This document shows positions 1 to 28,398 of a stretch of DNA of 54,452 nucleotides, in pieces. Within the stretch, counting starts at the first letter, position 1, and each line of letters starts with the position of its first letter. Under the pieces are notes generated by a model. The model had not been told where the DNA came from. It worked only from the letters and a program-made list of their open reading frames with translations, and ran no database searches. The position numbers and the translations under genes are program-made. Source of the stretch: Lachnospiraceae bacterium (GTDB taxonomy: Bacteria > Bacillota > Clostridia > Lachnospirales > Lachnospiraceae); the NCBI GenBank assembly GCA_021205385.1, contig JAJPXQ010000063.1:1-54452 (forward strand), written 5' to 3'.

Positions 1-61
1 ATCAACCACCTTCCTTGGAATTCCCTATACTTGAATTATACAGGAAGCTCCTTTCACATCA

Positions 62-871
62 TCAGACTGTCTTTGTCGTGGCAGACAGATAGGAGGCTAC
101 GCTCGCCGCGCTCTTTGTTGGCGGCCATCTTCTGGCGGCCTCCTCCATCTCCGCTTTGCGGGCCTCCGTTGCATGTCCCGCTGCGCTGCCATTGATTCCC
201 TTAAAGGCCTGGCCCGCATCCTGACTACTCAGCTCTTCCTCCGTCAGCACGCTTCTGGCCGAACCTCCATCGGCAAACATCCATTTCTTCGCCAGAGCCT
301 GCATGTCGCTCTTACCTGGCTCCGCCGCACCGCTCTTGCGGGCAGAACGCGTCCCGCTGCCTTCCTTGCTCGTTCCGTCAAAACTCCACGCATCCGCGGT
401 AATCCCCGCGAAGGGATTGTCAATGCAGAACATCTCCCGGTAGGCGATCGTCGTCGTCTCAACCAGGAGGGCGCTGCGCTCCGAATCAAGCTCCCCGAAA
501 TCCTTCGAAATCACCGTGCAGCCGGTGAACAGGTAGTAGCGCACGGTCTGATCGCTCCCGTAAGTCCGGTTCACCATCAGGATGACCGGCAGCACCAGGT
601 CGGTGCCGAGCGTCAGCGGATCGAGAAGATTCACGCCCACGTAGCGCTCCACCTGAAAGGTAAAGGGCTGCGAGATCGGCTTACGCAGCATATGTACATA
701 ATCGTTCAGGCCGCCCTCCTGGACGTACTCAAACTCGTTCGCCCTGTTGAAGGATTTGATGGATTTGCAGGGCAGATCGTACAGCGCCTCCACACGAAGC
801 ACAAAATTGAAGTTGACGAGCGGCTTGCGATCCAGATTCAGGCCGACATCGAAACTGAACAGATCTGACAT
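62..871 (-). CDS. CIS/phage-tail tube-like protein with long C-terminal extension
   Basis: A 269-residue protein. Residues 1-160 look like the gp19/Afp1-type tail tube fold (conserved phage tail region protein): an N-terminal F-x-V motif, a central VERYVG segment and a closing E-x-x-T-I-A-Y-R strand comparable to the IAYEELV end of the main tube protein at 1586-2080. The last ~100 residues are Ala, Lys, Glu and Ser rich with no recognisable domain. GGAGG lies 9 nt before the ATG. It is the last complete CIS gene in the window; the reverse complement of positions 1-61 ends in an AAGGAAGGTGG ribosome-binding-like stretch, so another gene probably starts just beyond the edge. In related systems extra tube paralogues join the inner tube to the spike or baseplate; that role is inferred here. 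Confidence 0.72.
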   Translation of the reverse strand: MSDLFSFDVGLNLDRKPLVNFNFVLRVEALYDLPCKSIKSFNRANEFEYVQEGGLNDYVHMLRKPISQPFTFQVERYVGVNLLDPLTLGTDLVLPVILMVNRTYGSDQTVRYYLFTGCTVISKDFGELDSERSALLVETTTIAYREMFCIDNPFAGITADAWSFDGTSKEGSGTRSARKSGAAEPGKSDMQALAKKWMFADGGSARSVLTEEELSSQDAGQAFKGINGSAAGHATEARKAEMEEAARRWPPTKSAASVASYLSATTKTV

Positions 872-885
872 GGCGTTTCACCTCC

Positions 886-1143
886 TTAGCGCGTCGGTTT
901 CATGTCAAGAATACTTTTCTCCTTCTTGTTTTTGGAGGGATTCAGGCTCTCGTTGATGCGGGAAATCTCACCGCACCATTTCCGCCTGGTCACGTGATCG
1001 AGCCCCATCACGTCCCCGCTGCCCCAGTGGAAGTAATAGGAAATAAAAGCCATCTCCTTATAAAGCTCCTCCTCGGGGTACAGCCTTATCCCTCCACGGT
1101 AAAATTTAGAGGAACCCGGAAAATCTTTCCGCAGTCCGGACAC
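886..1143 (-). CDS. small CIS protein, DUF6760-like
   Basis: An 85-residue protein carrying the pattern YPEEELYKEMAFISYYFHW followed by a basic MGLDHVTRRKW stretch. This matches my recollection of the DUF6760 family, small proteins found in phage-tail-like CIS loci between tail assembly and tube paralogue genes. The first ATG lies inside the upstream gene, giving a 58-nt overlap; no in-frame ATG, GTG or TTG exists between there and the motif, so the overlap is probably real and implies translational coupling. Its molecular role is not known to me. The family name is from memory and not verified. Confidence 0.65.
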   Translation of the reverse strand: MSGLRKDFPGSSKFYRGGIRLYPEEELYKEMAFISYYFHWGSGDVMGLDHVTRRKWCGEISRINESLNPSKNKKEKSILDMKPTR

Positions 1144-1448
1144 ACCGCCTCCATCGTAGGCGGCTCAATATCGTTGATCCGCTGATACATGTCCTGCAGA
1201 AAGGCCAGATCCGCGGTGAACAGCTTTTCGATCACGTTCGCACTCACCATCTCAAGTCCCTCCAGCTCTGTCACGACCTTGCCGAGGATCACGATCGTCA
1301 GGTAGGACGGATTGCTGAGCACGCGCGGATCCCGCGTCGCTCCGATCTCGTCTCCGGCGGTCGCCAGACGCATCTTTCCCTTCCGGTGCAGCTGTCCGCT
1401 GCCGTCCATATAGCCCTTCGGCAATGTAAAATCAAATACAGTCTCCAT
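1086..1448 (-). CDS. CIS tail assembly protein
   Basis: A 120-residue protein starting at an ATG preceded by AGGAG (a longer open frame extends upstream but has no ribosome binding site and runs through hairpins). The TLPKGYMDGSGQLHRKGKMR start, an RLATAGDE segment and DPRVLSNPSYLTIVILGKVV are typical of the short phage tail assembly proteins encoded next to tube genes in CIS and contractile phages. A C-terminal C-P-D-C pair may be half of a metal site. By analogy with tail assembly chaperones it may hold tube subunits or the tape measure before polymerisation; this is inference from position. Confidence 0.7.
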   Translation of the reverse strand: METVFDFTLPKGYMDGSGQLHRKGKMRLATAGDEIGATRDPRVLSNPSYLTIVILGKVVTELEGLEMVSANVIEKLFTADLAFLQDMYQRINDIEPPTMEAVCPDCGKIFRVPLNFTVEG

Positions 1449-1520
1449 ACATTTTCTCCTTTTTGTCTTGCTGATTATGATCCGGATACGGACCAGCCGC
1501 GGAAAGTCTCCGCACCTCGT

Positions 1521-1577
1521 CCCTGTCGGGATCGCCAACGCCCCTTGCGGGGCAGGTGACTGCTTCGCAGCCACCTG
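1521..1577 (-). promoter_or_regulatory. tandem RNA hairpins after the tube gene
   Basis: Immediately after the tube stop codon the minus-strand transcript can form a strong hairpin (1553-1577: 11-bp arms with one G-U pair and a GAA loop), then GCCCC-GCAA-type hairpin 1540-1553, then a small one at 1521-1531. There is no U tract, so they do not look like a full Rho-independent terminator. Their place after the most abundant structural subunit suggests a 3' stabiliser or processing site that raises tube mRNA over the downstream genes. Confidence 0.5.
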
Positions 1578-1585
1578 CTTATCGC

Positions 1586-2080
1586 CTAGTTCGGTATCAC
1601 CAGTTCCTCATACGCGATCTCGACGCTTTCAATCGCCACATCGCTGGTCTTTGCGTCCAAGTCAGGTGCATTGTACTTCGTCACCCAGGCGTTCGTCAGG
1701 ATCCAGACTCTGGTTCCGGTCACTGCCGTCGCGATGGTCTGCGGCGCACCGCCGTTGATATCGATCATCTCGATCTGCACATTGTTTCGCGGGATCTCGC
1801 CGCGAACCTCGCTGACACACTCCTGCACCCAGGTCTTGAACGCGCTGTCCAGGGTGTAGCCGAATTTCAGCGTCACATTGCCGTGCTTTACAAGGCCCGG
1901 GATCTTGACCGGCGCCAGGCTGTTCGCGTTGCCCTGGCGGAACTCGATCACATCCACGCTCGACTCGACTCCGGTCACCTCGCTGAAGGCCGCCGTTCCC
2001 GACACGCCGTCCACCGTGACCAGAAAATTCATCTTTGTCAAAGGATAGGAAAGTCCTTTACTGTTTTCATATGTCGCCAT
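1586..2080 (-). CDS. CIS inner tube protein (gp19/Afp1/Hcp-like)
   Basis: A 164-residue protein of the length expected for Hcp/gp19-type tube subunits. It shows the family layout: LTKMNFLVTVDGVSGTAAF near the start, the EVTGVESSVDVIEFRQGN segment, a KIPGLVKHGNVTLKFG strand and a final VAIESVEIAYEELVIPN strand. Subunits form stacked hexameric rings inside the contractile sheath. GGAG precedes the ATG by 9 nt. The gene directly follows the sheath gene, the usual sheath-tube order. Assignment to the fold is strong; the payload of this tube is not visible in the window. Confidence 0.9.
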   Translation of the reverse strand: MATYENSKGLSYPLTKMNFLVTVDGVSGTAAFSEVTGVESSVDVIEFRQGNANSLAPVKIPGLVKHGNVTLKFGYTLDSAFKTWVQECVSEVRGEIPRNNVQIEMIDINGGAPQTIATAVTGTRVWILTNAWVTKYNAPDLDAKTSDVAIESVEIAYEELVIPN

Positions 2081-2120
2081 CTTTTATCTCTCCTTTCTGT
2101 TCACTGACGCGTCCGCCTGT

Positions 2121-3818
2121 CTATTCTTCTCCTCCGCCGGACTCAGCCGTATGCTGGGTCACGCGGAAGATCACGAACTCGGCCGGACGGGACGGTGCGA
2201 TACCGATGTTGCAGATCAGCCTGCCGTTCATGATGTCGTCCTTGCTCATCGTGGACGGTCCGATTTCTACAAAATAACCCTCTGCCGGCGTGGAGCCTGC
2301 CAGCATGCCCTGTCTCCACATACTGTCGAGGAAGGACGAAATCGTCAGACTGACTCTCTGCCACAGCGTCGCGTCGTTCGGTTCGAAGACCACCCAGTTG
2401 GTGTTTGCCTTGATGCTCTCCTCCACATAGATAAACAGACGCCGCACGTTGACATACTTGAAGGCCGAATTGCTGCTGGCCGTCCTCGCGCCCCACACGC
2501 GGATGCCCTGTCCGGGAATCGCGCGGATCAGGTTGATACCCTCCGGATTCAGGATATCCTGCTCCGCCTTGGTGTAGTTCACCTTCAGGCCGGTGCAGAA
2601 CACGATCTCATTCGCCGGAGCCTTGTGCACGCCGCGGTTGATATCGGTGCGGGAGTAGACGCCCATGACCGCGCCCGAGGGCGGGATGAAATCGCTGCGG
2701 TTCGAGGAACGGTCGAAGACCTGGATCCACGGATGATACATCGCGGCGTAGGTCGAATCAATGATGCCGCGGTACTCGATCAGGTCTTTCGTCTTGTACG
2801 CGTCCTTCGGCATATCGAAGACCGCCACACGGCTCTTCAGGTTCTCGCAGTGCGCTACGAGAGACACAATCACCTCCGGATCAGTCACGCCGGGGATCGC
2901 CAGCATGCTGACCGTGCTGTTCTCGACGAAGGACTGGATACCCGTGCGCTTGCCGGGGCCGCCGTCCACGCCGATGAAGGTCGCCGCCGTCACCGCATCG
3001 ATGCTTCCGTCGGATCCGCCCTCCAGATTCAGCATGCCGCTGGTATTGCCCTCACCGAAGATCGCCTCGATCGGATTTCCGATCTTCTCCGGCTGGCCGA
3101 TGGAAACCTTCACCAGCTCGCTCAAAGCCAGTCTGGAACCGATATAGTTTGTCGCCTTCACGTTGAAGCTCAGATCGCCGTAGTTCTCGACCTCGTCGTT
3201 GTAACGGACGCTCACGTCCACACTCACAAGATAGAGAACCGTCTTCGGGATGATGCTGGTGTCCACCACCTCGCCGGTGAAGGGCTGCTCGAAGGTCACG
3301 GTATTGTCATAGATCGTCGCGATGCGGTTGTACTCGCCGTTCGCGTCCACCAGATCGCCCTCGCGGAAGCCGTCTACCGACTTCGCGATATAGCCGGTGC
3401 CGGACTGGGCGATGAGCTGCATCTTCTTCTTCTCAACAGTGTTGAAAGAAATCTGGATGCGATTGCCCCACTTTCCTTCATTCGCCGCCTCCACGGAGAG
3501 GATACCCTGCTCCTTTGACGCCGCCTTCGCGCCGTCCGGAATCACACGGGACACATAGCATCTGGTTCCGCCGTTGACGAAAAACTGCTCGACGCTGTTC
3601 GCCAGATAGCGATAATCGCCGTGGGTAAATTCACTTAAGAATCCACCGAACTGCTTGCTGAAGCTCTTGAAGCTCGTAACCAGGGAAGGAGCGCCGATCG
3701 CCGGCCCCTTCTCCGCAAAGCCGATGAATCCGGCTGTACTGGTTCCTACACCTTCGATGCTCCGCGGAGAATTATCATATTCTTCCACATAGACTCCGGG
3801 TGTAAAATATTCTGCCAT
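2121..3818 (-). CDS. CIS contractile tail sheath protein
   Basis: A 565-residue sheath subunit. I place the start at the ATG with AAAGGAG 7 nt upstream, giving an N-terminus of EYFTPGVYVEE, the signature opening of phage and CIS sheath proteins; the in-frame extension upstream lacks a ribosome binding site. The C-terminal domain has the conserved NWVVFEPNDATLW and the closing RPAEFVIFRV segment that exchanges strands with neighbouring subunits. The central region is the variable protruding domain. Only one sheath gene is seen in the window, whereas Afp/PVC particles use three. It is followed after 40 nt by the tube gene. Confidence 0.93.
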   Translation of the reverse strand: MAEYFTPGVYVEEYDNSPRSIEGVGTSTAGFIGFAEKGPAIGAPSLVTSFKSFSKQFGGFLSEFTHGDYRYLANSVEQFFVNGGTRCYVSRVIPDGAKAASKEQGILSVEAANEGKWGNRIQISFNTVEKKKMQLIAQSGTGYIAKSVDGFREGDLVDANGEYNRIATIYDNTVTFEQPFTGEVVDTSIIPKTVLYLVSVDVSVRYNDEVENYGDLSFNVKATNYIGSRLALSELVKVSIGQPEKIGNPIEAIFGEGNTSGMLNLEGGSDGSIDAVTAATFIGVDGGPGKRTGIQSFVENSTVSMLAIPGVTDPEVIVSLVAHCENLKSRVAVFDMPKDAYKTKDLIEYRGIIDSTYAAMYHPWIQVFDRSSNRSDFIPPSGAVMGVYSRTDINRGVHKAPANEIVFCTGLKVNYTKAEQDILNPEGINLIRAIPGQGIRVWGARTASSNSAFKYVNVRRLFIYVEESIKANTNWVVFEPNDATLWQRVSLTISSFLDSMWRQGMLAGSTPAEGYFVEIGPSTMSKDDIMNGRLICNIGIAPSRPAEFVIFRVTQHTAESGGGEE

Positions 3819-3852
3819 AATAGTAGTTCTCCTTTCGTTTTGTTTCCGATAA

Positions 3853-4236
3853 TCATGTGACCATAACCGTCGTCTGTCCCGGCGATACAATGCTGATGGA
3901 ACCGCCGTAGGCGCACATCAGTCTGCAGTCGCTGGTCAGACAGGATTTTCCACTTATCAGTACTGTCGGTTTGGTCGGTATCCAGGTTCCCGCCGGGACG
4001 AGTGCGCAGGGCTGCGGCGTCAGTACCCCGTTCGCCGCCGCTGTGGCGGCCGCCACCTGCGGATTGGCCAGGGAGGAACACATGCCAAAGGTGACATTGG
4101 CAGGCTGACAGTCCTGGATCGTGGCCGCCGGTCTTCCGCAGGCCAAACACATGGTCTGGGATGTCACATTGATCGTCCCCGGCGCTGCGCCGAACGTACA
4201 CATGGCGCTTCCGCCTGTCACTACAAGTTGTCCCAT
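3853..4236 (-). CDS. PAAR-like spike tip protein (DUF4280)
   Basis: A 127-residue DUF4280-type protein with MGQLVVTGGSAMCTFG at the start, a CLACGRPAATIQDCQP segment and a C-terminal CLTSDCRLMCAYGG. These Cys-rich PAAR-like proteins fold as a cone that caps the VgrG-like spike and can carry effectors. GGAGG lies 7 nt before the start. Its first 16 nt overlap the end of the upstream 255-residue gene, so the two are probably translationally coupled and may work together at the tip. No C-terminal toxin extension is present. Confidence 0.83.
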   Translation of the reverse strand: MGQLVVTGGSAMCTFGAAPGTINVTSQTMCLACGRPAATIQDCQPANVTFGMCSSLANPQVAAATAAANGVLTPQPCALVPAGTWIPTKPTVLISGKSCLTSDCRLMCAYGGSISIVSPGQTTVMVT

Positions 4237-4988
4237 ACGCTTTCCTCCTGTTCCAGTTTCCTTTCTCCGGCGCGATGGAAATCCACCGTCCGGAAAGCCG
4301 CCTTTCCTTCCGCCACGTAGCGAACCAGATAGACGAGATTTTCCGCGTCATCTCTGACCCGCAGAAGATAACTGCCATCCTCTGAGACGCTCCCGAATAC
4401 GATTCGGGCGACGGGCGCGTTCACTGTGAACGCCTCCGCGAGCGGCCGGCTGATCTTCACCGAGCCGTCCTGCAGCTCCTTCACGACCTCAAAGGGTTCA
4501 TAAGTCTGCTGCTGCGGATGTACCAGGCCATAGAAAATGTCGTCCATTCCCAGCCTGTGCGTTTTGAAGAGCTTCATAATCCGCTTACGCTCGTCAAAAC
4601 CGCTGATGCAGCACCCGGCATGGCCGGGGCTTACCGCCTGGATCTCCGTGATTCCCGGGAGTTTCCCTGAAAAGGTGATAACCGGCTGTCCCCCTGACGC
4701 GCTCTCCGACGGTATCAGGAACGCTTCCTTTGTCGGCATCCGGCTGTCCAGTTCCTCATAACGGATCGTCATCCGGCACGGCTCAAAGCCATACACCCTG
4801 ACGCTAAGCTCGCCGTCTGCCCTTCCGCAGTTCAGGAATACGTAATTTCCGCTTCCTCTGGGAATGGGGCGCACCGGGCGATCGTCTTTCCAGAATCGGA
4901 CGTTCCTCTCCTCCACCGTAAGACCTGTGGTCGTATCGATCAGTCTGACCAGCAGATCCAGACTGTGACGAATCTCAGATGCATCCAC
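4221..4988 (-). CDS. unknown CIS operon protein
   Basis: A 255-residue protein with a GTG start behind GAGGGAT. I do not recognise its family. The first ~120 residues look beta-rich, with repeated hydrophobic strands and a PRGSGNYVFLNCG segment, and could be a carboxypeptidase-regulatory or Ig-like fold; then follows a mixed region beginning KLFKTHRLGMDDIFYGLVHP. There is no signal peptide or membrane segment. It sits between the cap and PAAR-like tip genes and overlaps the tip gene by 16 nt. A tip adaptor or baseplate-associated role is a guess from position only. Confidence 0.6.
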   Translation of the reverse strand: MDASEIRHSLDLLVRLIDTTTGLTVEERNVRFWKDDRPVRPIPRGSGNYVFLNCGRADGELSVRVYGFEPCRMTIRYEELDSRMPTKEAFLIPSESASGGQPVITFSGKLPGITEIQAVSPGHAGCCISGFDERKRIMKLFKTHRLGMDDIFYGLVHPQQQTYEPFEVVKELQDGSVKISRPLAEAFTVNAPVARIVFGSVSEDGSYLLRVRDDAENLVYLVRYVAEGKAAFRTVDFHRAGERKLEQEESVWDNL

Positions 4989-4991
4989 CTG

Positions 4992-5588
4992 TTATCCCTC
5001 TCCTCCTTCCTCCCCGGTAATATGCAGTCCAAATGTCGCATCCACGACACGGGGGGTGTCGATGACAATCTCGCTGGATAAAAATACGGGCGCCGCCTTG
5101 TAGAACAGGCTGATCTGATAGGGCTTGTTAATCGCCTGCCACACCCTCACCTTCTCCTCCAGACTTATCTTCGCCTGAGACAGTACAATCGGAGGTTCCT
5201 GGGTATCCAGCCAGGACTGCAGCTGGTTCGGGAGGACGGAACTGTTGTCATTCACAATCTGTGCCACCCTTCCGATGATTTTCTGTATATCCGGCGCCTT
5301 GAGTCCCATCTGGGAGGAGCCGTTGATAAAGACCATATAGTAGAGACCATAGGGCCTTGGCGGTTTTTTTATCTGGACGCGTCCCTTCTGGATATAGGGC
5401 TGCTGCGTCACGTCACTCTCCTCGCGGATATCGTAGAGGTACAGTCCGAGAATGTAGTCCACGTCCTGATCCGCGGGGGAGGAAATCTCGATATTATTCG
5501 GAGACGGTATGGGCTCCGGGCACATCTTGCTGCGGAGTGTCCGCACGATATATGCGCTCACATCTGCAATAATCGGATAATCTGCCAT
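4992..5588 (-). CDS. CIS tail terminator/cap protein (DUF4255, Pvc16/Afp16-like)
   Basis: A 198-residue DUF4255 protein. The opening PIIADVSAYIVRTLRSKM, the LGLYLYDIREES segment and PRPYGLYYMVFINGSS are typical of the N-terminal domain of Afp16/Pvc16. In Afp this protein caps the distal end of the sheath-tube and fixes particle length. AAAGGAGG precedes the ATG. The protein lacks the longer C-terminal part seen in Afp16 (about 300 residues, from memory), which is common in other CIS lineages. Confidence 0.85.
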   Translation of the reverse strand: MADYPIIADVSAYIVRTLRSKMCPEPIPSPNNIEISSPADQDVDYILGLYLYDIREESDVTQQPYIQKGRVQIKKPPRPYGLYYMVFINGSSQMGLKAPDIQKIIGRVAQIVNDNSSVLPNQLQSWLDTQEPPIVLSQAKISLEEKVRVWQAINKPYQISLFYKAAPVFLSSEIVIDTPRVVDATFGLHITGEEGGEG

Positions 5589-5601
5589 ATCAGTCCTCCT
5601 T

Positions 5602-7383
5602 TTAATTTCCTATCGTGTCCGTCTGCCCGGCGTAGGGCGCTGTCGTGACGATACCGATCGGCTCTGTCGGGTCGAACGCGCACTCTCCCAGAAATGCCCC
5701 GTCTGCATCATAGAAACAGACCTTCACATCGGACATCCTCCAGGCGAGCAGCCGCCAGTGACGGATCTCCTCTGTGGTCGCCGTGCGCTCCCCCACCTGG
5801 AGGTTCCCGCACCAGAGCTCGTAATACGCAATCTCCTCGGAGTAAGCTCCCGGGACGGATACCCCAAAGGAAAATTCCTCCTCGGCCGAGTGCGACTTTA
5901 TGTAATAGACGACCTCCGCCTCTTCTGCATCAGCAGAGGATGTCGTGCCGGAGCTGACAAGACTGCTCTCAGATTCTTTGCCGGAAGTCCAGGCCGAATC
6001 GTTCCCGATCTCCTCCGTGAGCTCCTGAAGATACCCTCCGGTAACGCTGTCGAGCGCGTAATATGCTTTGAAATATTCGCCCTGCGCGTCGAGCAGCTCC
6101 ATCTCCAGCTCTTCATATTCGTCTGTCAGCGCATCATACTCCTCCCTGGAGAGCTCGCCGATGCGATAGCGCACCCGGTAAGTCTTCTGCTTCTTTTCAA
6201 GCGCCTCCAGTTCTTCCTGAATCTTCTCGATCTGCTCCTTCCGGTCCAGTAGATTCTCATAGCTTTCTTCTACACTCTCAGTCAGCGATTCCTCCTGGCT
6301 GTCCATGTCGATCACCAGATTCTGATATTTCAGCACATCGTCATACAGCGAATACGCGCCGTCGTCATCCGCCACCGGCTGCGCAAGGGCCGCGGCCCGC
6401 GCCTCCGCGTAGGCGTCATACTCCTCCTGAAACTCATCCGTGTCGATCGCCCATCCGGCGACTACCCGCAGCATATACTGCAAAATATTGTCCGGCACCT
6501 GATAATTCTCGGAGCGCGCCGTATATTCCTTCCAGAAGGCCCACAGCATGTTCTGCGCGCTCGCGCAGAACGCGAGATACGAACTGCTGTTTTCCAGCGT
6601 GCCCGCGATCAGCTCATCAAGTCTTCCCTCCCAGAGCTCGCTCTCCACCTCCAGCTCTGCAAAGCTGACATTCTCAGACAACTCTACGCCCATGGCTTCC
6701 GAGAGCTCCGCCTTCGCCTCCTCAAGTTCTTCCTGCTTTTCGCTCAGACTCTCTTCACGTGACCCGACCTCATCCTCCTGTGCGTCCACATCGTCCTGCG
6801 TGGCCTGCCCGGTCCGTAATAACGCCTTCATCTTCGTCAGCGAAGTCTTCTCCTCTGCAAGCCACTCCTCCTCCAGCTCTATCTTCTGCTGCAGCGTAAC
6901 GATGTCCGCGTACAGCCCCGCGATCTCCTCCTGCACGGACAGCCGCTCCTTCTCCAGCGCTGCCTCGGCAGTCTCGACGTCCATCTGCGCCAGCAGCGGC
7001 GCGATCAGGATGCTGTAGAGTTCTGAGAGGCTCTGCCCCTCAGAAGGCACTGCTTCCATAAAGGGCGACCACAGGTAAGTCTCTTCTTCCCCGGCCTCTT
7101 CCGCTGCCGTGTCGTCCTCCACCGCCGTCTCTTCTGCAGCTGTCTCCTCCCCGGAGTCCCCCTCTACATATGGGCTGGCCGCCAGAACCGCTTGCGCCAG
7201 ATCCACCCGTTTCATGGACAGCTCATTATTCAGTTCCGTATACTCCGAACTGTTCGCAAAGGCCTGCTCCACCGCAGTCTCGAGCTTCAGGGGCGTGCTC
7301 CCCGCGGCCAGAGCCGTAATGCCCGTCCCTTCGAGAAACAAAACCGCTGCAAGAATGGCTGCTGTTCGATTTCTTTTTCTCAT
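5602..7383 (-). CDS. secreted TolC-like coiled-coil protein of the CIS operon
   Basis: A 593-residue protein. The start is set at the ATG that gives a signal peptide (MRKRNR, hydrophobic stretch, cleavage near ALAAG), with AAGGCGG upstream. Residues ~33-70 (LKLETAVEQAFANSSEYTEL) and ~150-235 (long heptads around ALLRTGQATQDDVD, ending ELSEAMGVEL) resemble the helical repeats of TolC/OEP family proteins; a second coiled-coil set follows at ~380-480. Residues 77-104 are acidic. The C-terminal ~100 residues look beta-rich. TolC family proteins normally form outer membrane channels, but a Clostridia-type cell has no outer membrane, so this is probably an extracytoplasmic helical scaffold around or above the CIS. 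The assignment is by pattern only. Confidence 0.6.
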   Translation of the reverse strand: MRKRNRTAAILAAVLFLEGTGITALAAGSTPLKLETAVEQAFANSSEYTELNNELSMKRVDLAQAVLAASPYVEGDSGEETAAEETAVEDDTAAEEAGEEETYLWSPFMEAVPSEGQSLSELYSILIAPLLAQMDVETAEAALEKERLSVQEEIAGLYADIVTLQQKIELEEEWLAEEKTSLTKMKALLRTGQATQDDVDAQEDEVGSREESLSEKQEELEEAKAELSEAMGVELSENVSFAELEVESELWEGRLDELIAGTLENSSSYLAFCASAQNMLWAFWKEYTARSENYQVPDNILQYMLRVVAGWAIDTDEFQEEYDAYAEARAAALAQPVADDDGAYSLYDDVLKYQNLVIDMDSQEESLTESVEESYENLLDRKEQIEKIQEELEALEKKQKTYRVRYRIGELSREEYDALTDEYEELEMELLDAQGEYFKAYYALDSVTGGYLQELTEEIGNDSAWTSGKESESSLVSSGTTSSADAEEAEVVYYIKSHSAEEEFSFGVSVPGAYSEEIAYYELWCGNLQVGERTATTEEIRHWRLLAWRMSDVKVCFYDADGAFLGECAFDPTEPIGIVTTAPYAGQTDTIGN

Positions 7384-7399
7384 CTGTTCCGCCTTTCCC

Positions 7400-8596
7400 T
7401 TACTCCTGATACTGAATAATATAGAAGGAAAACGTACCGTCCGTCCCGGAGGATACAAAGGTGTAGCTTAAGCCGTCCCGGGTACCTGTAAAAGCCCTGG
7501 CGCTTCCGCCATATTCCTCCACTGTATAGTAGTCATCATATTCCTGTGAGAGCACCAGTTCCGTGTCCTCCGAATCAACACGGGCAAAGGCCACCGCCTC
7601 CGCCAGTGTGAGCTCCTTCGTCCGTATGAGCAGCTCCGCCCCAAAATAATTTTCAAGTTCCTCCCTTGTGCTGAGCTTCGTGCTGCCCGTGGAAAATTCA
7701 TCGCTTAATACAATCACCTGTCCGATCGTGATCTCCTCATCCAGCGCCGCGCTCTCCCCGTTATCGGCATAAACCACGTCAATATCATCCAGTACCACCG
7801 CGTAACTGTCATCCTGCTCATATACCGTCCGACTTCCGGAATAGCTCTCCGCCACTTCGGAGGCCTTCTGCCCCAGAATCTCGCTGTAGACAATACTGTC
7901 CTTGCTGAAGCTTCCTTCATAGACCAGATTCCCGCTTATATCATAGAGCTGGCCGGAACCATCCTTCATGCCGAGCGCGAAATCCCCCTCGTACTCCATC
8001 GTTCCATTCTCACGGTACAGCTTTCCCGTCCCGCTGAACGCATTTGCCTCAAATCCTCCCGTGTACATCATGGTTCCGTCATCGTAGTACCGTGTACCCG
8101 TTCCCTGATACTCGTTGTTTTCAAAATTTCCCTGATAGACAACGACCCCCTCGGCATTGTACAGAGTGCCGTAACCGGTGACCGCACCGGACGCCACCTC
8201 TCCCTCGTAGGCCAGGTAACCGCTCTTCGCTGTGATCTGTACCGTGCCGCTTGTAAAACGCAGCAACAGAGAATCATAGGAATATGTTTTCACCGTATCC
8301 GAATCCGAAGAAGGCAGAACACTGCGCACACAAAACAGATAGTAAACGCTGAGCACCCCCGCGACAATCACCAGCGCGAGCGCCAGACGGCGGCTCACAA
8401 GCCAGCCGAAGACCTCATAATAGTCCTTCTTGTGCCTGGGCCTGATGTCCAGGATCTTCGAAAAGAAATCCCGGATGGAGGAGATCAGTTTGGTACGGAT
8501 AAAGCTCCAGCTGGTCCAGTTCTTGAACTTTGTAACCAGCGGCGTAATCTTCGACTTGATCGTCGAGATCAGGGTACTGAACAGATTCGTTCCCAT
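7400..8596 (-). CDS. single-pass membrane MORN-repeat protein of the CIS operon
   Basis: A 398-residue protein. Residues 1-68 are basic and amphipathic, residues ~69-90 form one membrane helix, and residues ~127-232 hold about five MORN-type repeats (pattern YEGEVASGAVTGYGTLY, YQGNFENNEYQGTGTRYY). The remaining ~165 residues are acidic with no known domain. GGAGG lies 9 nt before the ATG. The topology suggests a short cytosolic N-terminus and an external C-terminal part. MORN repeats often bind lipids or proteins at membranes. It may help anchor the injection system to the cell envelope; this is inferred from the operon context. Confidence 0.72.
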   Translation of the reverse strand: MGTNLFSTLISTIKSKITPLVTKFKNWTSWSFIRTKLISSIRDFFSKILDIRPRHKKDYYEVFGWLVSRRLALALVIVAGVLSVYYLFCVRSVLPSSDSDTVKTYSYDSLLLRFTSGTVQITAKSGYLAYEGEVASGAVTGYGTLYNAEGVVVYQGNFENNEYQGTGTRYYDDGTMMYTGGFEANAFSGTGKLYRENGTMEYEGDFALGMKDGSGQLYDISGNLVYEGSFSKDSIVYSEILGQKASEVAESYSGSRTVYEQDDSYAVVLDDIDVVYADNGESAALDEEITIGQVIVLSDEFSTGSTKLSTREELENYFGAELLIRTKELTLAEAVAFARVDSEDTELVLSQEYDDYYTVEEYGGSARAFTGTRDGLSYTFVSSGTDGTFSFYIIQYQE

Positions 8597-8643
8597 ATCC
8601 GCGCTCCTCCTTTCTCAGGTAATCTTATACTGACTATATTCTG

Positions 8644-10896
8644 TCAATGATCATAACGCAGTCTGCAGATATCGCCCTCACACCAGGACTGATTCAGGTA
8701 TTTTTCGCAGGTAAACAGGTACCACCTGGCCATGCGGTCATCGGGATTGGCTTTCATGACGTCTGAAAAACCGCCGCGCGCCAGATAGAAATCATGCTGG
8801 TAAAACAGTTCCAGCGCTTTCCCGAACTTTTCCGCTGTATCCGTCTTCAGCCGCCTTTCCCCCTGCGGGCAGGCATCGAGCACCTCATAGAGATCAAGCC
8901 GCTTTCCGACCTTGTCGAGGAAAAGATAGCCCAGATAGCGATGTGTTCCCTGCGGCTTCTCCTGCTCCAGCACCTCTGCCGTAATAACCAGCCGAAGATC
9001 CATTCCCCGAAACCATGCTGCGAAGCGCTCAAGCTCTGCCTTTTCCTCCGAGAGCAGGAACGGAAAGCTCTGCCGCTCATTTCCGGCCACTCCATAAAGA
9101 AAGTCCGAACAGTGGATCAGAATCCCCGCCTGCAGGCTCTGAAGCACTGACTCCTCATAAAATTCCCGCAGAAAGGAAATACCAAATTCAACACTTCGCC
9201 CATTTCCCTCTGGAAACAACAGCTTCAGACTCGTCAGATCTGCGTTCCCGGATACAAAATATCCGCCGTTTTCTTCCTGATGCTGCTCCACCAGAGTGAC
9301 AAACCGATTCATCTGCTCCGCTGTCATTTCCTCCATACCAGACGGCTCAGCGGTTGTGATAAAAGCCACCATTCCATGCAATCGGACCGTATCTCCGCCC
9401 GCAACCTCTGTGATCGAATCGCGTCCGAACAGCTTTTCTATATTCTTCGGCGCGAAGCGATAGCAGGACTCAAAGATCCGATAACGCGTATAGTTGATCC
9501 TGTGGATCTTCTTCTGAATCTCCATGAGACTGTTCCACATGACCGCCGTATCGCGGCTGCGGATTCTCCCACCCGCGGATGCCTCCTGTCCGGCCGACAC
9601 CTGCAGCATGGCAGCTGAGAGCCTTTTAAGCTCTCTGCCCCGGATCAGCAGAAGCGCCACACATACTGCGCTCACTGTCAGGAACAGAATACCCGCGAAG
9701 ATCAGGTATCCGCGATTTGCCGCCTCCGAAAAGAGACTTCCATCATCCTCACCGCGAATCGCCGCCAGTGTATATACTGTCACTTTGTCAGCCGTGAAAT
9801 CCATCTCTAGGAGCTCCGCGTCCTGTCCATAAACCGTTGAAAGCGACGCTCCGTTCTTTCCGCTGGCACTCACCAGAATGCAGCCGTCCTCCGGCCTCAG
9901 GATACAGATATCCGCAAAGACATCCGCCGTTCCCTCATCGGAAATAAATCCTGACAGAAGGCTGAAAAGCTCCTCATAGGTATCACTCTGATAGAAAGCC
10001 TCCGCCTCAAAATCCTCCAGCGGCTGCATCGCCTTCATATCCGCGAGCAGCGCCTTCATATAATAAAGACTGTAGCACTCTGTCTCAGACTCGCTCGTGT
10101 TCTGACTGCTGCGCGTCGCCAGCATCACACCGGTCACCGTAATGACGAGAAGCAGCGCCTCAACGAGCACAATCGCATATACCGTATAACTTCGGTTCCG
10201 CAGCAGCCTCACAACCAGGAACCATATGACCCAACCGGCAAACAGAAGCACAAGATAACAGATCGTGCTGTGCTGGCGGATATTTGCCTCCTGCCCCATG
10301 TCCATGAGCATCTGCTCACAATCGGCCGCATCAGACACGGCCTGCTCGTAATACACTGCCCCGGTTCCATCGTCTTTCCAGGTGAGGAGCGTTCCGTCCA
10401 CATAACCGGCCCAGTTGATCCTGCGCCCATATCCCGCTTTTACGGAGCTCGCCAGCGCAAGGGAAAGAGGCTCCGGCGGCTCCTCCGCGGACAGATTTTC
10501 CGCGGAAAGGCTTTCGCTCTCCACAAAATAAAGACCCGCACTCTCTCCTCCGTCCAGGATCACCGCAAGATAAAAGCCCTCCGGGGTTACACGAAGAGCG
10601 CTCAGGCTTCCCCCGCTCTCCAGCTCCAGAACCGGGGTTACGGCCAGGGCCTCGCCGGTCTCACTTAAACTTACAATTCTCCGGCCTTCCCCGTCCTCCG
10701 ATGAGGACGGCGTCAGCACAGCATACAGCCCTTCCGAATAACACAGAGCTTCAAACTCACTTCCCTTTTCAAGGGCGTCGCTCAGATATACGGAGCGCGG
10801 CAGCTCACCGGGCCAGTCTCCTCCACAGGAGGCAGCAAGCCCGATCACAGCAAACAGCCAGAGAAAACCGATCAGAAGTGGTATTCTCCTCCTCAT
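8644..10896 (-). CDS. membrane protein with degenerate class III cyclase domain
   Basis: A 750-residue protein starting at the ATG with AGGGAGG 5 nt upstream (a GTG two codons earlier is closer to the site). It has an N-terminal membrane helix or signal (5-22), an extracytoplasmic beta-rich domain, two membrane helices (~211-232 and ~239-260), a second external domain and a fourth helix (~397-418), then a HAMP-like linker. Residues ~480-670 follow the class III adenylate cyclase order (FAPKNIEKLFG, then HGMVAFITT, ENGGYFVSGNAD, GVAGNERQSFPFLL, and a closing LDLYEVLD), with a TPR-like tail. The metal-binding Asp positions are not conserved (FITT where active enzymes have F-x-D-I). It is probably a pseudocyclase sensor. 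Confidence 0.68.
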   Translation of the reverse strand: MRRRIPLLIGFLWLFAVIGLAASCGGDWPGELPRSVYLSDALEKGSEFEALCYSEGLYAVLTPSSSEDGEGRRIVSLSETGEALAVTPVLELESGGSLSALRVTPEGFYLAVILDGGESAGLYFVESESLSAENLSAEEPPEPLSLALASSVKAGYGRRINWAGYVDGTLLTWKDDGTGAVYYEQAVSDAADCEQMLMDMGQEANIRQHSTICYLVLLFAGWVIWFLVVRLLRNRSYTVYAIVLVEALLLVITVTGVMLATRSSQNTSESETECYSLYYMKALLADMKAMQPLEDFEAEAFYQSDTYEELFSLLSGFISDEGTADVFADICILRPEDGCILVSASGKNGASLSTVYGQDAELLEMDFTADKVTVYTLAAIRGEDDGSLFSEAANRGYLIFAGILFLTVSAVCVALLLIRGRELKRLSAAMLQVSAGQEASAGGRIRSRDTAVMWNSLMEIQKKIHRINYTRYRIFESCYRFAPKNIEKLFGRDSITEVAGGDTVRLHGMVAFITTAEPSGMEEMTAEQMNRFVTLVEQHQEENGGYFVSGNADLTSLKLLFPEGNGRSVEFGISFLREFYEESVLQSLQAGILIHCSDFLYGVAGNERQSFPFLLSEEKAELERFAAWFRGMDLRLVITAEVLEQEKPQGTHRYLGYLFLDKVGKRLDLYEVLDACPQGERRLKTDTAEKFGKALELFYQHDFYLARGGFSDVMKANPDDRMARWYLFTCEKYLNQSWCEGDICRLRYDH

Positions 10897-10908
10897 AAGC
10901 ACCTCCCT

Positions 10909-11760
10909 TTATCCGGTCAACGATTCCGTACCGATCGTCTTAAATCCATTGAATAATAATCGCAGCCAGGGCACATCCCCGAAAATCAGCTGGCAGAGCA
11001 GCGACGCGAGAACGATCAGCACCAGCGCTGTACAGACAACCAGCAGGATGCGAAAGATCATATCCTGCCTGCGGGCAATCCAGGCCATCAGTCTCTTTCG
11101 GATGCCGCGCTTTTTTTTCGGCGCAGCCGCGATCTGAATATCCTTGTATAATTCCGTGAAAGAATCGTAGCTCTTCCTGCCGATCTTTTTCTCCAGAAGA
11201 CGATAGCTGTAAGCCTTTTGCGCCGCCTTCGCACTCAGAAGCTCCCTTAGAATCTGCGCGCATTCCACTGCACAGTCCCGCTCCGTCCTGCCAGAGTCCA
11301 GCTCGCTTAAGTCAATCTGCCACCCGAGATAGACGGTGTGATCCTTCGCCAGATTCAGCTGCCCCTGCCGCAGGGCGAGATAAAGCAGCGGATAAGGCAG
11401 TCCGGCCGTCATACAGGCGATGATGACGCTGCTGCAGATCGTCTCACACTCCGTAAGGGAGTAGAAACTGCCCGTATAAAAATCCTTCAATGGCCGTTCC
11501 TGCCTGTAGACAAATACCATACAGAACACACCCTGATCAGAGAAACTTTCCACGCAGGCTCTCTCTCCTGAGATACCGGCATGCCGGAAAGCCTCCAGGC
11601 AACGCCGCACCACAGCATGATCCTTGATGGCAAGCACCGTATACAGCGCTCCTGCGGAAGAATTCAGGTCACGGCATATCAGAATATCATTGACACTATT
11701 CGATTTTACAGTCCGAACGCAGGCGAGTCTCATCCGCTGCGACTGATAAATCTTATCCAC
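10909..11760 (-). CDS. membrane-anchored pseudokinase-like protein of the CIS operon
   Basis: A 283-residue protein with a GTG start behind GGAGG that lies inside the end of the upstream gene. Its outline resembles a shrunken protein kinase fold: a beta-rich N-lobe (ALYTVLAIKDH), a hinge-like VFVYRQERPLKDF comparable to the E-Y-x-x-G-x-x-L-x-x-F of kinases, and QGQLNLAKDHTVYLGWQIDL where kinases have N-I-L-x-x-x-x-G-x-x-K-L-x-D-F. No HRD or DFG residues remain, so catalysis is unlikely. A Lys/Arg-rich linker leads to one membrane helix at ~236-258. It probably acts as a cytosolic binding module tethered to the membrane. The kinase-fold reading is a pattern match that needs structural confirmation. 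Confidence 0.55.
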   Translation of the reverse strand: MDKIYQSQRMRLACVRTVKSNSVNDILICRDLNSSAGALYTVLAIKDHAVVRRCLEAFRHAGISGERACVESFSDQGVFCMVFVYRQERPLKDFYTGSFYSLTECETICSSVIIACMTAGLPYPLLYLALRQGQLNLAKDHTVYLGWQIDLSELDSGRTERDCAVECAQILRELLSAKAAQKAYSYRLLEKKIGRKSYDSFTELYKDIQIAAAPKKKRGIRKRLMAWIARRQDMIFRILLVVCTALVLIVLASLLCQLIFGDVPWLRLLFNGFKTIGTESLTG

Positions 11761-11763
11761 GGC

Positions 11764-13575
11764 TTACGGTTCCTCCGTCTCAGCTCCTGTTTTCTTCACA
11801 ATTGCATAGGCATAGGTACAGATCACCGGCATGTCCACGCAGTAGACGCGGATTTCATACACCCCCTCCTTCGCCGGTGAGGTATAGACGCCGTCCGAGG
11901 TAATCTCGCCGCTTCCGGGCTCTGTCAGCTCGTAAGCGATGCTGCAGGCCTCCATATTGTTGTAGCGCACATGGAAATAGAAATTCTCCCGCGTCCCCAT
12001 AACCACCGTCGGCGTATCCACGGAAATGCTCCTGTCACTGTAATTTTCGGTTCGATCCAGATCGTTCCCTGCCGGAAAACGGATCGCAACCCAGCGATAG
12101 GTAAGCACAAGATAATTCACATTTTCCAGAAGTTTTGCCGCCACGATAAAGCTTCCCTTGTCGTTCATGACCTTCACAGCCGTCTCCACGTCTACAGCGG
12201 TCAGCTGTTCGTCGCGAAACAGCTTCGGATTCCCATAGATTGTATTTCTGGAAGTGATGCCAAGCGCCGGATCCTCCGCTATATATTCGTAACCGATTTC
12301 CACATGTACGTTGCCCTTTCCAAGGCCATGCATGATCTCACCGGAATAGCGAACGTCTCCTCTTCTGGCATTCTCTCCCAGCGGAATCTCCAGCACACCG
12401 GATGCGGCCTCGATCGCACGCCCCTGCCAGGCAGCCGGCCCTGTTTCCCCTGCAGCGGGCCGGTTCGGCTCTCCGCTGCGGAAAATATCCGGGTCCTTTG
12501 AAAAATATTCCATGTACTGACTGCGCATCCTGCTCTGGGACGGAGCCATAATATAGTTCTTGATCCCCTTTTCCAGAACCTCTTCTATAATATAGGCATT
12601 CTCCGTGCGAACCAGCTTCAGATCTGCAAGACAGACGTAATCCTTCGCGCCGCCCATACTCTTCATCTCAAGGCTGATACGTCCAAGTTCCTGGCTGACC
12701 AGATCGCCCGGTTTCATATCCGTGAGCGCGATATTCAGTGCGCTGCCGGACGGAGCTTCCTTCGCCACGCCATCCACCGAGACATGGGCTGTTCCGCTCT
12801 CCACCAGAATGCTCGTATCAATCACCGGCGCCTCCTGCGTGTGCAGCCAGTAATCTTTTTTCAGTGTCTCGCCCTCCACAAGCGAAGCATCACGGATCTC
12901 TACCGATAATTCATGCGTTCCTTCCGACGTGAGAAATACGGGCGTCTGCAGAACCGCACGATAGGAGAGCTTCCGGTTCTGTGAAGAAAGTTTCTGTACG
13001 ATCAGTTCCAGCCGGACATTCTTTCCGCGGCAGACCGTAGCCGGCATAGACAGCTTCACCAGAAAATCCTCATCCTCAAAGAGAGTAAGACTCGTGAAAA
13101 ACTCACTCTCCATCTCATATTCTGCCGCATCATCCTCCCGATCCATCAGAAATAGCTGATAGGACTCGCTGATGCGATTGTATTCATACTCCTCACGGCC
13201 GTCCTCCCCGGTTCCCTGATTCACGGTGTAGACCGTATGAATCGGCTCCTCCCGGTAGCGCAGGCAGAGGCAGGCCTCGTCTGTCCGCAGGTTTTCGAAG
13301 CCCTCGATCGCAGAGAGCTTTTTCACCACGGAAGACTCCACAACAATCTCCCGTCCCAGCCCGTCAATCGCAACGCCGCTTTCCACAAGGAGCGACAGAT
13401 CATCGAGGCTGAACACACCACAGCCGCAGACCACACCCGAACCATACATCAGGTTGTTGACAAACCGACGCTTGTTGTTGAAATAAGTCTGCTCTGCCTG
13501 GAAGTCCGCGGACGTGAGCATCTTCCCGGCATAGTAACGATTTCTCTCAAAAGGATATAATTTTGTATTGTTCAT
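11764..13575 (-). CDS. CIS-associated protein with YYAGK/LT-DF N-terminal motif
   Basis: A 603-residue protein. Its N-terminus (FERNRYYAGKMLTSADFQAE, then NNLMYGSGVVCGCGV) is a motif I associate with CIS loci of many phyla, where the protein sits near baseplate or tape-measure genes. Residues ~100-400 are beta-rich, ~400-500 resemble a repeat of glycine-rich strands, and the last ~90 residues look like an Ig/Big-type domain (ITSDGVYTSPAKEGVYEIRV). There is no signal peptide or membrane helix. The AGGGGAGG site before the ATG is one of the strongest in the operon. It could be a large baseplate or fibre-like component; the function is not known to me. Confidence 0.65.
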   Translation of the reverse strand: MNNTKLYPFERNRYYAGKMLTSADFQAEQTYFNNKRRFVNNLMYGSGVVCGCGVFSLDDLSLLVESGVAIDGLGREIVVESSVVKKLSAIEGFENLRTDEACLCLRYREEPIHTVYTVNQGTGEDGREEYEYNRISESYQLFLMDREDDAAEYEMESEFFTSLTLFEDEDFLVKLSMPATVCRGKNVRLELIVQKLSSQNRKLSYRAVLQTPVFLTSEGTHELSVEIRDASLVEGETLKKDYWLHTQEAPVIDTSILVESGTAHVSVDGVAKEAPSGSALNIALTDMKPGDLVSQELGRISLEMKSMGGAKDYVCLADLKLVRTENAYIIEEVLEKGIKNYIMAPSQSRMRSQYMEYFSKDPDIFRSGEPNRPAAGETGPAAWQGRAIEAASGVLEIPLGENARRGDVRYSGEIMHGLGKGNVHVEIGYEYIAEDPALGITSRNTIYGNPKLFRDEQLTAVDVETAVKVMNDKGSFIVAAKLLENVNYLVLTYRWVAIRFPAGNDLDRTENYSDRSISVDTPTVVMGTRENFYFHVRYNNMEACSIAYELTEPGSGEITSDGVYTSPAKEGVYEIRVYCVDMPVICTYAYAIVKKTGAETEEP

Positions 13576-13615
13576 GGTATGGCCTCCCCTCCTGTTTCGC
13601 CACCTCTATAAGAAA

Positions 13616-13918
13616 TCACTTCTGCCTGCCAGCCCATAAGCGCTTTTCGTGGCGGCAGACACCCATCAACGTGTGCGGAGCTGCCGGCGTGTAGAACCTG
13701 CAGGAACCGCAGTCTATACACCGCTCCGGTTCATCCCATTCGCAGTAAGGACAGGCGTCTTCCACGCTGGCCATAACGGGATGCCCGTCCCGTGTCCACA
13801 CAGGATTCTCAATAAAATCCGGATATTCCTCTATATACATATCAGCCAGGCTGTCGTAATGCAGGGGGATATCCAGAACGACTCCCTCAAACTCGTAACG
13901 CCTTGATTTCCTCTCCAT
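13616..13918 (-). CDS. small Cys-rich, probably zinc-binding, first gene of the CIS operon
   Basis: A 100-residue protein; the ATG at 13918 lies 5 nt after AGAGG. Residues ~1-50 are charged without known motif; residues ~57-90 hold seven Cys (C-P-Y-C, C-I-D-C-G-S-C, and later C-R-F and V-C-R-H), a spacing that suits a zinc ribbon or a small Fe-S site. It is the first gene after the promoter region and is followed after 40 nt by the 603-residue CIS gene. I do not recognise its family. A regulatory or assembly role is possible but not shown. Confidence 0.6.
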   Translation of the reverse strand: MERKSRRYEFEGVVLDIPLHYDSLADMYIEEYPDFIENPVWTRDGHPVMASVEDACPYCEWDEPERCIDCGSCRFYTPAAPHTLMGVCRHEKRLWAGRQK

Positions 13919-13965
13919 TTTCACCTCTCCCGCGACATCATACCGAACGTAATTCCGCCTGTATC

Positions 13966-26086: not shown

Positions 26087-26101
26087 GCGACTTCCTCCCG
26101 C

Positions 26102-28310: not shown

Positions 28311-28341
28311 CTGACGCCCTCCCTCCTTGTGTTCTGGACTC

Positions 28342-28347
28342 AGTATA
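28342..28347 (-). promoter_or_regulatory. -10 box of the ABC exporter operon
   Basis: TATACT on the minus strand with an extended TGC just upstream, 31 nt before the ATPase start. The -35 position is poor. Confidence 0.5.
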
Positions 28348-28398
28348 GCATAAATCCGGGCATACATTTCTTAAAATTCCTTAAGTTTATCTTCAGGC

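Follow-up and report, generated by a model that had tools for sequence, protein, structure and literature searches.

Contractile injection systems (CIS) that are anchored to, or otherwise linked with, a membrane are already described in archaea, cyanobacterial thylakoids and Streptomyces. The archaeal T6SS of Halogeometricum borinquense (CIS clade IIa) was seen bound to the cytoplasmic membrane, and the sections of that report on which we draw place the closest relatives of its Cis11 in Bacillota. A putative membrane anchor gene, Hbor_38620, lies upstream of its core cluster and encodes six helices plus a cytoplasmic domain of about 150 residues; the cluster is without Cis19, the envelope is archaeal with an S-layer, and those sections mention no pseudo-enzymes (PMC11566945). 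The tCIS of Anabaena is anchored via baseplate and fibre parts: as far as the excerpted descriptions go, the anchor is made up of a Cis13 transmembrane helix and a Cis12 extension in the thylakoid membrane, not of a separate receptor-like complex. In Streptomyces, a Gram-positive with a type IId CIS, part of the published account describes the membrane protein CisA as required for contraction and absent from the particles; CisA, a single protein whose gene follows the baseplate genes, has one helix and an outer domain of substrate-binding-like type (PMC12237407).

Here we describe a CIS operon of a Lachnospiraceae bacterium that is headed by a block of membrane and exported proteins. A sequence-only reading of this DNA had suggested an undescribed anchored subtype. 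Since anchored CIS as such are known, the novelty is confined to this membrane module and its host group. In the texts that our literature search covered there was no description of the module, nor of Butyrivibrio together with 'contractile injection', and the one co-mention of Lachnospiraceae was in a reference list; the main text of a metagenome CIS survey (PMC12210884) is without Lachnospir-, Firmicutes, Bacillota and Clostridi-.

Results

A membrane block heads the CIS operon

The window (the whole stretch of DNA analysed, 54,452 nucleotides of contig JAJPXQ010000063.1) carries the operon and its leading block at 62-13918 on the minus strand. The proposal that the CIS genes are preceded, in one operon, by a pseudokinase, a four-helix pseudocyclase, a membrane MORN protein and an exported TolC-like protein was borne out, all four being present on that strand. 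The features are as follows.

15340-16710: cell wall hydrolase gene
14088..15104, minus: LuxR/GerE regulator, possible operon regulator (PF00196, 1.4e-9)
13616..13924, minus: small Cys-rich protein (weak Fer4_2, 0.0016; 3/11 relatives)
11764..13575, minus: g603, CIS-linked, Cis19-like N-terminus (10/11 relatives; tail-fibre position in four other CIS)
10909..11760, minus: pKin, apparent cytoplasmic pseudokinase, one C-terminal membrane helix and short outer tail (predicted)
8644..10902, minus: pCyc, four-helix receptor-like protein with HAMP-like segment, class III pseudocyclase domain (apparently inactive) and TPR-like tail
7400..8596, minus: MORN-repeat protein, basic N-terminus, one helix, repeats predicted outside (PF02493, 1.3e-7)
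5602..7383, minus: exported TolC/OEP-like protein with signal peptide (OEP, PF02321, 1e-13)
4992..5588, minus: cap/terminator Pvc16_N (PF14065, E 1.5e-28)
4221..4988, minus: p255, conserved, adjoins cap (11/11 relatives; no Pfam match)
3853..4236, minus: PAAR-like spike tip DUF4280 (PF14107, 1.1e-26)
2121..3815, minus: contractile sheath (PF17482, 4.1e-16; PF04984)
1586..2080, minus: inner tube protein T4_gp19 (PF06841, 8.3e-31)
1086..1448, minus: small CIS assembly protein (11/11 relatives; start inferred from 120-aa homologues, ORF reaches 1574)
886..1143, minus: DUF6760 protein, start uncertain (PF20546, 1.8e-16)
62..871, minus: second tube protein, tube2 (gp19 weak, 0.0062)
1..54, no strand: contig-end repeat, common to 6 other contig ends

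Genes in the operon overlap or are separated by 3-47 bases, the one exception being a gap of about 137 bases upstream of the small assembly gene, should that gene start at 1448. Membrane helices were called from Kyte-Doolittle hydropathy, not with a trained predictor, and all topology given here is predicted.

The remaining CIS genes are on another contig, C43, where the next CIS gene begins at base 61; the repeat at 1-54 is likely the end of a mobile element lying between tube2 and that gene. The core set is complete (sheath, tube, cap, PAAR/spike, LysM-type tube proteins, gp25, baseplate J, Tail_P2_I and AAA ATPase), as judged by Pfam for the window genes and for the continuation in the relative G013, and by profile for C43. 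The nearest solved sheath is that of the archaeal T6SS (9ezm, E 6.9e-106), and the Streptomyces sheath also matches (8bky/9gtp, same sequence, E 3.7e-95). The locus appears, from gene content, to be a complete chromosomal CIS, and its nearest solved sheaths, used in place of a tree, would assign it to lineage II. Its tube2 is 52-65% identical to those of G010, G016, G009, G040 and G022, and 22-31% to those of the farther relatives G012, G002, G014, G005 and G006.

The block is conserved beside CIS genes

The same gene order was looked for in relatives, where its absence beside CIS genes would have spoken against the sequence-only reading; it proved to be conserved. Ten of 11 fetched relatives keep the order g603-pKin-pCyc-MORN, and the contig of the 11th is too short. 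We then took the best 80 of 422 stretches encoding g603 relatives in a collection of 84,980 species genomes. Wherever these 80 named loci have enough DNA downstream of g603, pKin (76/76), pCyc (68/68) and MORN (63/63) follow, at median gaps of 3, 14 and 21 bases, and the predicted topology is constant: a C-terminal helix in pKin (76/76), at least four helices in pCyc (64/64), one in MORN (63/63) and a signal peptide in the TolC-like protein (55/56). The latter is present in 57 of 58 of these loci with enough DNA, one of them (L190) having other ORFs after MORN where it is expected; it is found in 6 of the 11 fetched relatives and absent from a second clade formed by the other five. Most relatives also encode an exported protein of 930 aa. 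The dN/dS of the block, 0.05-0.18 against G016, indicates purifying selection.

Genes at the edge of the operon behave otherwise. The LuxR regulator is found in 2 of the 11 relatives and in 3 of 67 named loci (best 80 of 422) with more than 2 kb upstream of g603, which places it outside the conserved core, and the cell wall hydrolase is matched only in G013 and G016 among the 11. Together with the Cys-rich protein, both were rejected as core parts because they are rare in relatives.

In a sample of the family Lachnospiraceae, g603 was detected in 42 of 397 genomes, one of them a marginal match. A sample of the class (391 genomes, 15 with CIS and 376 CIS-negative) had pCyc beside CIS in 9 of the 15, and in further families of the class pCyc and MORN again stand next to CIS genes, differently arranged. 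The pKin profile gave no detection in G302, G374 and G065; as the TolC-like protein is moreover missing from the second clade, only pCyc and MORN are constant beyond the family.

pKin and pCyc have lost catalytic residues

Pfam gave no kinase match in 34 pKin members and no cyclase match in 31 Lachnospiraceae pCyc (HAMP in 2, NHL in 2), so that a model fold was used for the former and distant members for the latter. The pKin profile had no PDB match up to E 10. The structure model supports a kinase fold. HRD and DFG are the kinase motifs used as yardstick, and both are absent when the columns of the 34-sequence alignment are read against the model strands. An Asp three residues past the expected DFG place is kept in 30 of 34, so nucleotide or metal binding may persist. 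pKin, with its predicted membrane helix at 238-256, thus seems to be a pseudokinase, as had been suggested.

pCyc has predicted helices at 7-25, 213-231, 243-261 and 400-418. Its profile matched only FKBP51 and 8a3k in the PDB (E 0.009-0.015), and TssO matched weakly (0.048) in 1 of 31 members. Distant CIS-linked members match PF00211 (G065, 4.4e-12; G240, 1.7e-6), and the homology is also seen via PDB 2w01 (6.7e-10); the window protein is tied to cyclases through alignment with these members, with no direct Pfam cyclase match. The first catalytic metal-binding Asp is present in 1 of 82 CIS-linked rows, the second in 27 and both in 1, namely L164, where the alignment looks shifted. By contrast, the first Asp is kept in all five relatives read from CIS-less genomes (G209, G323, G084, G238, G124), none of which lies beside CIS genes. 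These are class III adenylate cyclases that resemble the inner half of pCyc, from the HAMP region to the cyclase; those of G209, G323 and G084 also align with its TPR-like tail. Such cyclase-type relatives occur in 10 of 376 CIS-negative genomes at E <= 4e-12; at E <= 0.001, 88 of the 391 class-sample genomes match pCyc, many over the HAMP stretch alone. The distant members bear out the cyclase identity, and pCyc looks like a catalytically inactive class III cyclase. Active second-messenger signalling by pCyc was rejected, the first Asp being found in 1/82 only.

The MORN protein has a helix at about 66-95, and its repeats are predicted to lie outside the cell. Among the proteins scanned (window, G013 continuation and block-gene members), no Pfam family of TssJ, TssL or TssM, the trans-envelope complex of T6SS subtypes i-iii, was found.

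g603 stands in the tail-fibre position in other CIS

In four other CIS (G240, G302, G065b and G374), g603 stands after the baseplate gene tailI, which is the tail-fibre position, and in G240 it is followed by pKin. Two CIS that lack the block carry large proteins in the fibre position: that of G175 matches g603, and that of G065a shares the N-terminal motif by eye. Compared with the PDB, one fibre-position protein of G175 gave only kinase matches (E 0.52-0.54). The g603 profile had a single PDB match, a weak one to the tCIS crown protein Cis19 (7b5h All3314, E 0.0077 and 0.013), restricted to the N-terminal 60-65 residues. The structure model was poor (pLDDT 69, pTM 0.38), and Foldseek with it was uninformative. 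The sequence-only reading had given g603 (11764-13575) no role; the gene proves important.

The region after tailI

For a 1015-aa baseplate protein of G013, the one strong match in the PDB is to Streptomyces 9gtp (E 3.1e-15), with 9qgl (0.0081) listed besides. Between tailI and the AAA gene, G013 encodes STAS-, ABC ATPase- and HATPase-type ORFs and one of 74 aa, none of the four with a membrane helix (hydropathy maximum 1.10); a transmembrane protein just after the baseplate genes, as in the CisA arrangement, is thus not found there. In this interval, the only one inspected for it, no fibre-like gene was seen either. Partner-switch type genes also follow tailI in G009 (ABC ATPase and HATPase) and in G126 (STAS, followed by a two-helix protein of histidine-kinase type).

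Discussion

We consider it somewhat likely that this CIS is membrane-docked and signal-gated, coupled to the cytoplasmic membrane of its producer. Particles would assemble in the cytoplasm with g603, a crown or fibre-position protein, on the baseplate, where it would bind pKin, pCyc and MORN, joined in a complex in the membrane. As the receptor, pCyc would sense a signal with its two outer domains and relay it through the HAMP-like segment to the pseudocyclase-TPR domain. Because both pCyc and pKin have lost catalytic residues, the signal would travel through contacts between proteins instead of cAMP or phosphorylation, and would set off contraction of the sheath towards the membrane and on through it. 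The outer face, or a route across the wall, may be shaped by the exported proteins: MORN, TolC-like and, in most relatives, the one of 930 aa. The sequence-only reading had likewise suggested a CIS held at, or sensed through, the membrane. This fits the predicted topology, the kinship of g603 with fibre-position proteins and the affinity of the sheath to 9ezm, while docking, sensing, firing and its direction are steps that we infer. Compared with the described systems, the block lies upstream of the core genes as the putative archaeal anchor does, and differs from that six-helix protein in its make-up.

A different account, possible but in our view rather unlikely, is that the CIS is free in the cytoplasm and that under stress the membrane block acts as a checkpoint which recruits particles to the membrane and fires them, at the cost of the producer's life, as has been proposed for CisA. 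The behaviour of CisA itself, needed for contraction yet not in the particles in the part of that study cited above (PMC12237407), speaks for it, as do the Streptomyces match of the G013 baseplate protein and the partner-switch type genes of G013, G009 and G126. Against this, CisA is smaller than the module, which also comprises exported proteins (TolC-like, 930-aa), and the four G013 ORFs after tailI are without a membrane helix.

A bolder form of the docked CIS is doubtful: a trans-envelope, T6SS-like weapon of thick-walled monoderms, seated on the cytoplasmic membrane and gated by pseudokinase and pseudocyclase, in which TolC-like hairpins and the 930-aa protein would provide the wall passage, so that a cell fires at its neighbours and survives.

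It is improbable that the particles are ordinary released extracellular CIS and that the block senses conditions and controls only expression or lysis. The upstream LuxR regulator and the cell wall hydrolase gene would suit such control, and GerE regulators adjoin 25.8% of eCIS loci according to part of a published survey (PMC8213781); but both genes are rare in relatives, as counted above, both candidate signalling enzymes look inactive, and the tailI-AAA interval of G013 showed no fibre-like gene. That the leading genes are mere neighbours with no functional link to the CIS is hardly credible: cyclase relatives do occur without CIS, but chance neighbourhood is rejected by the unbroken presence of pKin, pCyc and MORN in the named loci with enough DNA (best 80 of 422), their median gaps of 3, 14 and 21 bases, and the reappearance of block genes, differently arranged, in further families.

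Whether a CIS serves as a released toxin particle, a suicide device or a reusable weapon depends on its placement and mode of firing. The large conserved membrane module next to the CIS in many Lachnospiraceae of rumen and gut is a testable candidate for a CIS-firing receptor in monoderms. How a trigger may be relayed by contact through two catalytically dead signalling domains is a question for structural work, and among the hosts are genomes that resemble cultured strains, Butyrivibrio sp. AE3009 for one.

Operon layout and a contig break

The contractile injection system (CIS) of the window is encoded on the minus strand by a single operon of about 13.9 kb reaching the contig end, in the order small Cys-rich protein, g603, pseudokinase (pKin), pseudocyclase (pCyc), MORN protein, TolC-like protein, cap (Pvc16_N), p255, PAAR-like tip, sheath, tube, small assembly protein, DUF6760 and second tube protein (tube2). 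The leading block comprises:

11764..13575, minus strand, g603
10909..11760, minus strand, pKin
8644..10902, minus strand, pCyc
7400..8596, minus strand, MORN protein
5602..7383, minus strand, TolC-like protein

Genes in the operon overlap or lie 3-47 bases apart, except for about 137 bases ahead of the assembly gene, if its start is at 1448. The genome (3.1 Mb) is split into 167 contigs, the window being contig C124. In the near-identical relative G013 (97-100% identity over the compared proteins, 94% for TolC) the operon runs on unbroken past tube2 with a 940-aa protein, two CIS_tube (LysM-type) proteins, a 374-aa protein, spike (Phage_base_V), gp25, a 1015-aa baseplate protein, Baseplate_J, Tail_P2_I and an AAA protein, and contig C43 of the window's own genome begins with these genes (96% identity over 17.6 kb). 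Positions 1-54, the end of C124, are a repeat common to six other contig ends (noted for window 1-54 and L216 1-60); G013 is uninterrupted at this place. The start of C43 does not bear the repeat. On the simplest reading, the repeat is probably one end of a mobile element that entered after tube2, ahead of the gene for the 940-aa protein.

Past Tail_P2_I, G013 carries STAS-, ABC ATPase- and HATPase_c_2-type ORFs, the ATPase having no permease at its side. These were recognised by reading; the family scores come from the copies in G009 and G126. A row of such ORFs has these coordinates:

L028:13533-14931, STAS-, ABC ATPase- and HATPase_c_2-type ORFs, consecutive, within the CIS operon

The set resembles a partner switch and could have a role in setting expression or readiness. 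Also downstream of the CIS genes of G013 (L040:5422-10461) are a GH3-family protein, a multi-helix protein, a HATPase-like protein and a SpoIIE phosphatase with two hydrophobic segments.

Conservation of the leading block

With the window's own genome counted, 12 of the 41 genomes in a first set of relatives have a CIS, as judged by the cap family PF14065. Eleven relative loci were fetched and searched with profiles of the block genes; g603, pKin, pCyc and MORN were found in ten, in the same order and with either the cap gene or the genes for TolC and a 930-aa exported protein downstream, and the eleventh (G022) lies on a contig too short to show the block. Among nine compared, the farthest have pCyc proteins only 18-23% identical to the window's, with gene order still kept. 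A scan of the genome collection yielded 479 pattern matches and from these 422 g603 relatives, of which the best 80 were retained. Close named matches are Lachnospiraceae MAGs such as L128 (92% identity), and on this ground the family of the window was taken as Lachnospiraceae and the class as Clostridia. Counting those of the best 80 of 422 with sufficient DNA downstream of g603, pKin was present in 76/76, pCyc in 68/68, MORN in 63/63, the TolC-like protein in 57/58 and the 930-aa protein in 53/57. Of 52 such loci among the best 80, 33 showed the cap; in 18 of the 19 misses the sequence ends at most 177 bases beyond the last gene, and in the other, L190, different ORFs stand after MORN. Within a family sample, 42 of 397 genomes had a g603 match, one of them marginal (G785, 5.6e-4, 45 positions).

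Across the class, PF14065 was found in 15 of 391 genomes and g603-type matches in 13, every one among those 15; in five of the 13 (G175, G239, G280, G331 and G403) the match is limited to short N-terminal stretches. Nine of the 15 have a CIS-linked pCyc (the window's own, G040, G126, G261, G240, G374, G065, G302 and G357). MORN mapped to the CIS cluster in all nine, and pKin was recognised in the first five. Where no pKin was recognised, g603 is followed by an unclassified ORF (G302 and G065) or by an exported substrate-binding-like protein (PF04392; G374), and the G357 contig stops within MORN. In G374 (L094:3867-7410) this protein is joined by a many-helix protein, an arrangement that recalls the outer domain described for CisA, the Streptomyces membrane protein tied to CIS firing. 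For the six CIS genomes without a CIS-linked pCyc, the gene maps read were those of G175 and part of G237. None of the block genes was seen in the 20 kb of a second CIS of G065 (G065a, L097), and seven CIS-less congeners showed no pCyc, only HAMP-region matches with E 4.5e-7 or weaker.

Relative to G016, dN/dS of the block is 0.05-0.18, and dS is 0.82-1.02 for the block (5602-13575 against L022), 0.27-0.43 for cap, sheath, tube, LuxR and hydrolase, and 0.46 for p255; dS against G009 was near or past saturation and was left out. Since block dS exceeds that of most flanking genes about two- to fourfold, the block seems to have been exchanged as a unit, like a cassette; codon usage bias is an alternative account of the raised values.

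A putative pseudocyclase and a likely baseplate-side protein

We aligned 82 CIS-linked pCyc rows with five relatives taken from genomes that lack CIS. The first catalytic Asp is present in 5/5 of the relatives vs 1/82 CIS-linked rows (L164, where the alignment is apparently shifted), and the second in 3/5 (Glu in the other two) vs 27/82. CIS-linked pCyc therefore reads, from sequence, as a pseudocyclase, whereas its CIS-less kin look catalytically competent. Among distant CIS-linked members scanned with Pfam, Guanylate_cyc matched above cut-off in G065 (4.4e-12) and G240 (1.7e-6), below it in G374 (0.0092), and not in G302 or G357; HAMP was above cut-off in G065, G240 and G374 and just below in G302. 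The G065 protein matches adenylate cyclase 2w01 (6.7e-10) with both metal positions altered. Four helices are predicted in 63 of 64 pCyc proteins from the best 80 of 422 loci and five in one, so that two domains are predicted to lie outside and the HAMP-like, cyclase-like and TPR-like part inside. HAMP-cyclase-TPR relatives whose catalytic residues look intact occur in L212, L213 and L217, from CIS-negative genomes of small size (0.8-1.2 Mb).

In G240, G302, G065b and G374, g603 directly follows Tail_P2_I. According to PMC12237407, the slot just past the baseplate genes holds tail fibres in conventional eCIS and CisA in Streptomyces. Three proteins of 873-1923 aa with an N-terminal g603 match occupy the corresponding place in G175. 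Against the PDB, the g603 profile hit a single chain, All3314 of Anabaena, with E 0.0077 and 0.013 over its residues 18-85 and 19-81. This protein is named Cis19 in the work on thylakoid-anchored CIS, where it forms the crown surrounding the spike cage (PMC8894136). We infer that g603 is a putative baseplate-side adaptor, the similarity being weak and the structure model poor.

Exported and accessory proteins

With Lachnospiraceae regarded as monoderm, the TolC-like protein must be something other than a usual channel of the outer membrane. It matches OEP in the window and in both further members scanned, one of these under the curated cut-off. Of 37 copies of the 930-aa protein from the best 80 of 422 loci, 36 begin with a hydrophobic segment at the N-terminus, and three of four scanned match Cu_amine_oxidN1, all below cut-off; profile searches of the relative loci did not find the protein in the three relatives closest to the window, G010, G013 and G016. 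TolC is missing from a second clade (G002, G005, G006, G012 and G014), whose members have large proteins immediately upstream of g603; in G012 (L031:3177-12073) these are two proteins, 1942 and 999 aa long, both bearing Fn3-associated/CHB_HEX repeats and hydrophobic at the C-terminal end. Downstream of AAA, proteins at L028:17497-19623 and L041:8745-10988 weakly match ADP-ribosyltransferase, below cut-off (0.0039 and 4.9e-5), and are possible CIS cargo. As read from its ORFs, a separate cluster at window positions 24749-28367 encodes an FtsX/MacB-like permease, an exported protein with a C-terminal helix and an ABC ATPase.

Relation to known systems

Membrane-linked CIS are already known in cyanobacteria (PMC8894136), archaea (PMC11566945) and Streptomyces (PMC12237407). 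Our literature search, with all preprint servers and most subscription papers outside its scope, returned no account of such a module, nor of any CIS in these bacteria. The nearest solved relative of the sheath is that of an archaeal T6SS (9ezm), which stands on the cytoplasmic membrane and serves contact antagonism against neighbours (PMC11566945). Next come the sheaths of Streptomyces, where firing depends on a membrane protein (PMC12237407). Recruitment as by CisA, coupled to a cell-death mode, is a less likely account of the operon, and it is improbable that the CIS is of the ordinary released kind and the operon sensory. We favour, with moderate confidence, a docked, receptor-gated CIS, because apparently dead domains adjoin the likely adaptor, the nearest sheath belongs to a membrane-bound system and the next ones need a membrane protein to fire. 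Since the two apparently dead signalling domains are on the inner face and next to the likely baseplate adaptor, the trigger would be passed by contact.
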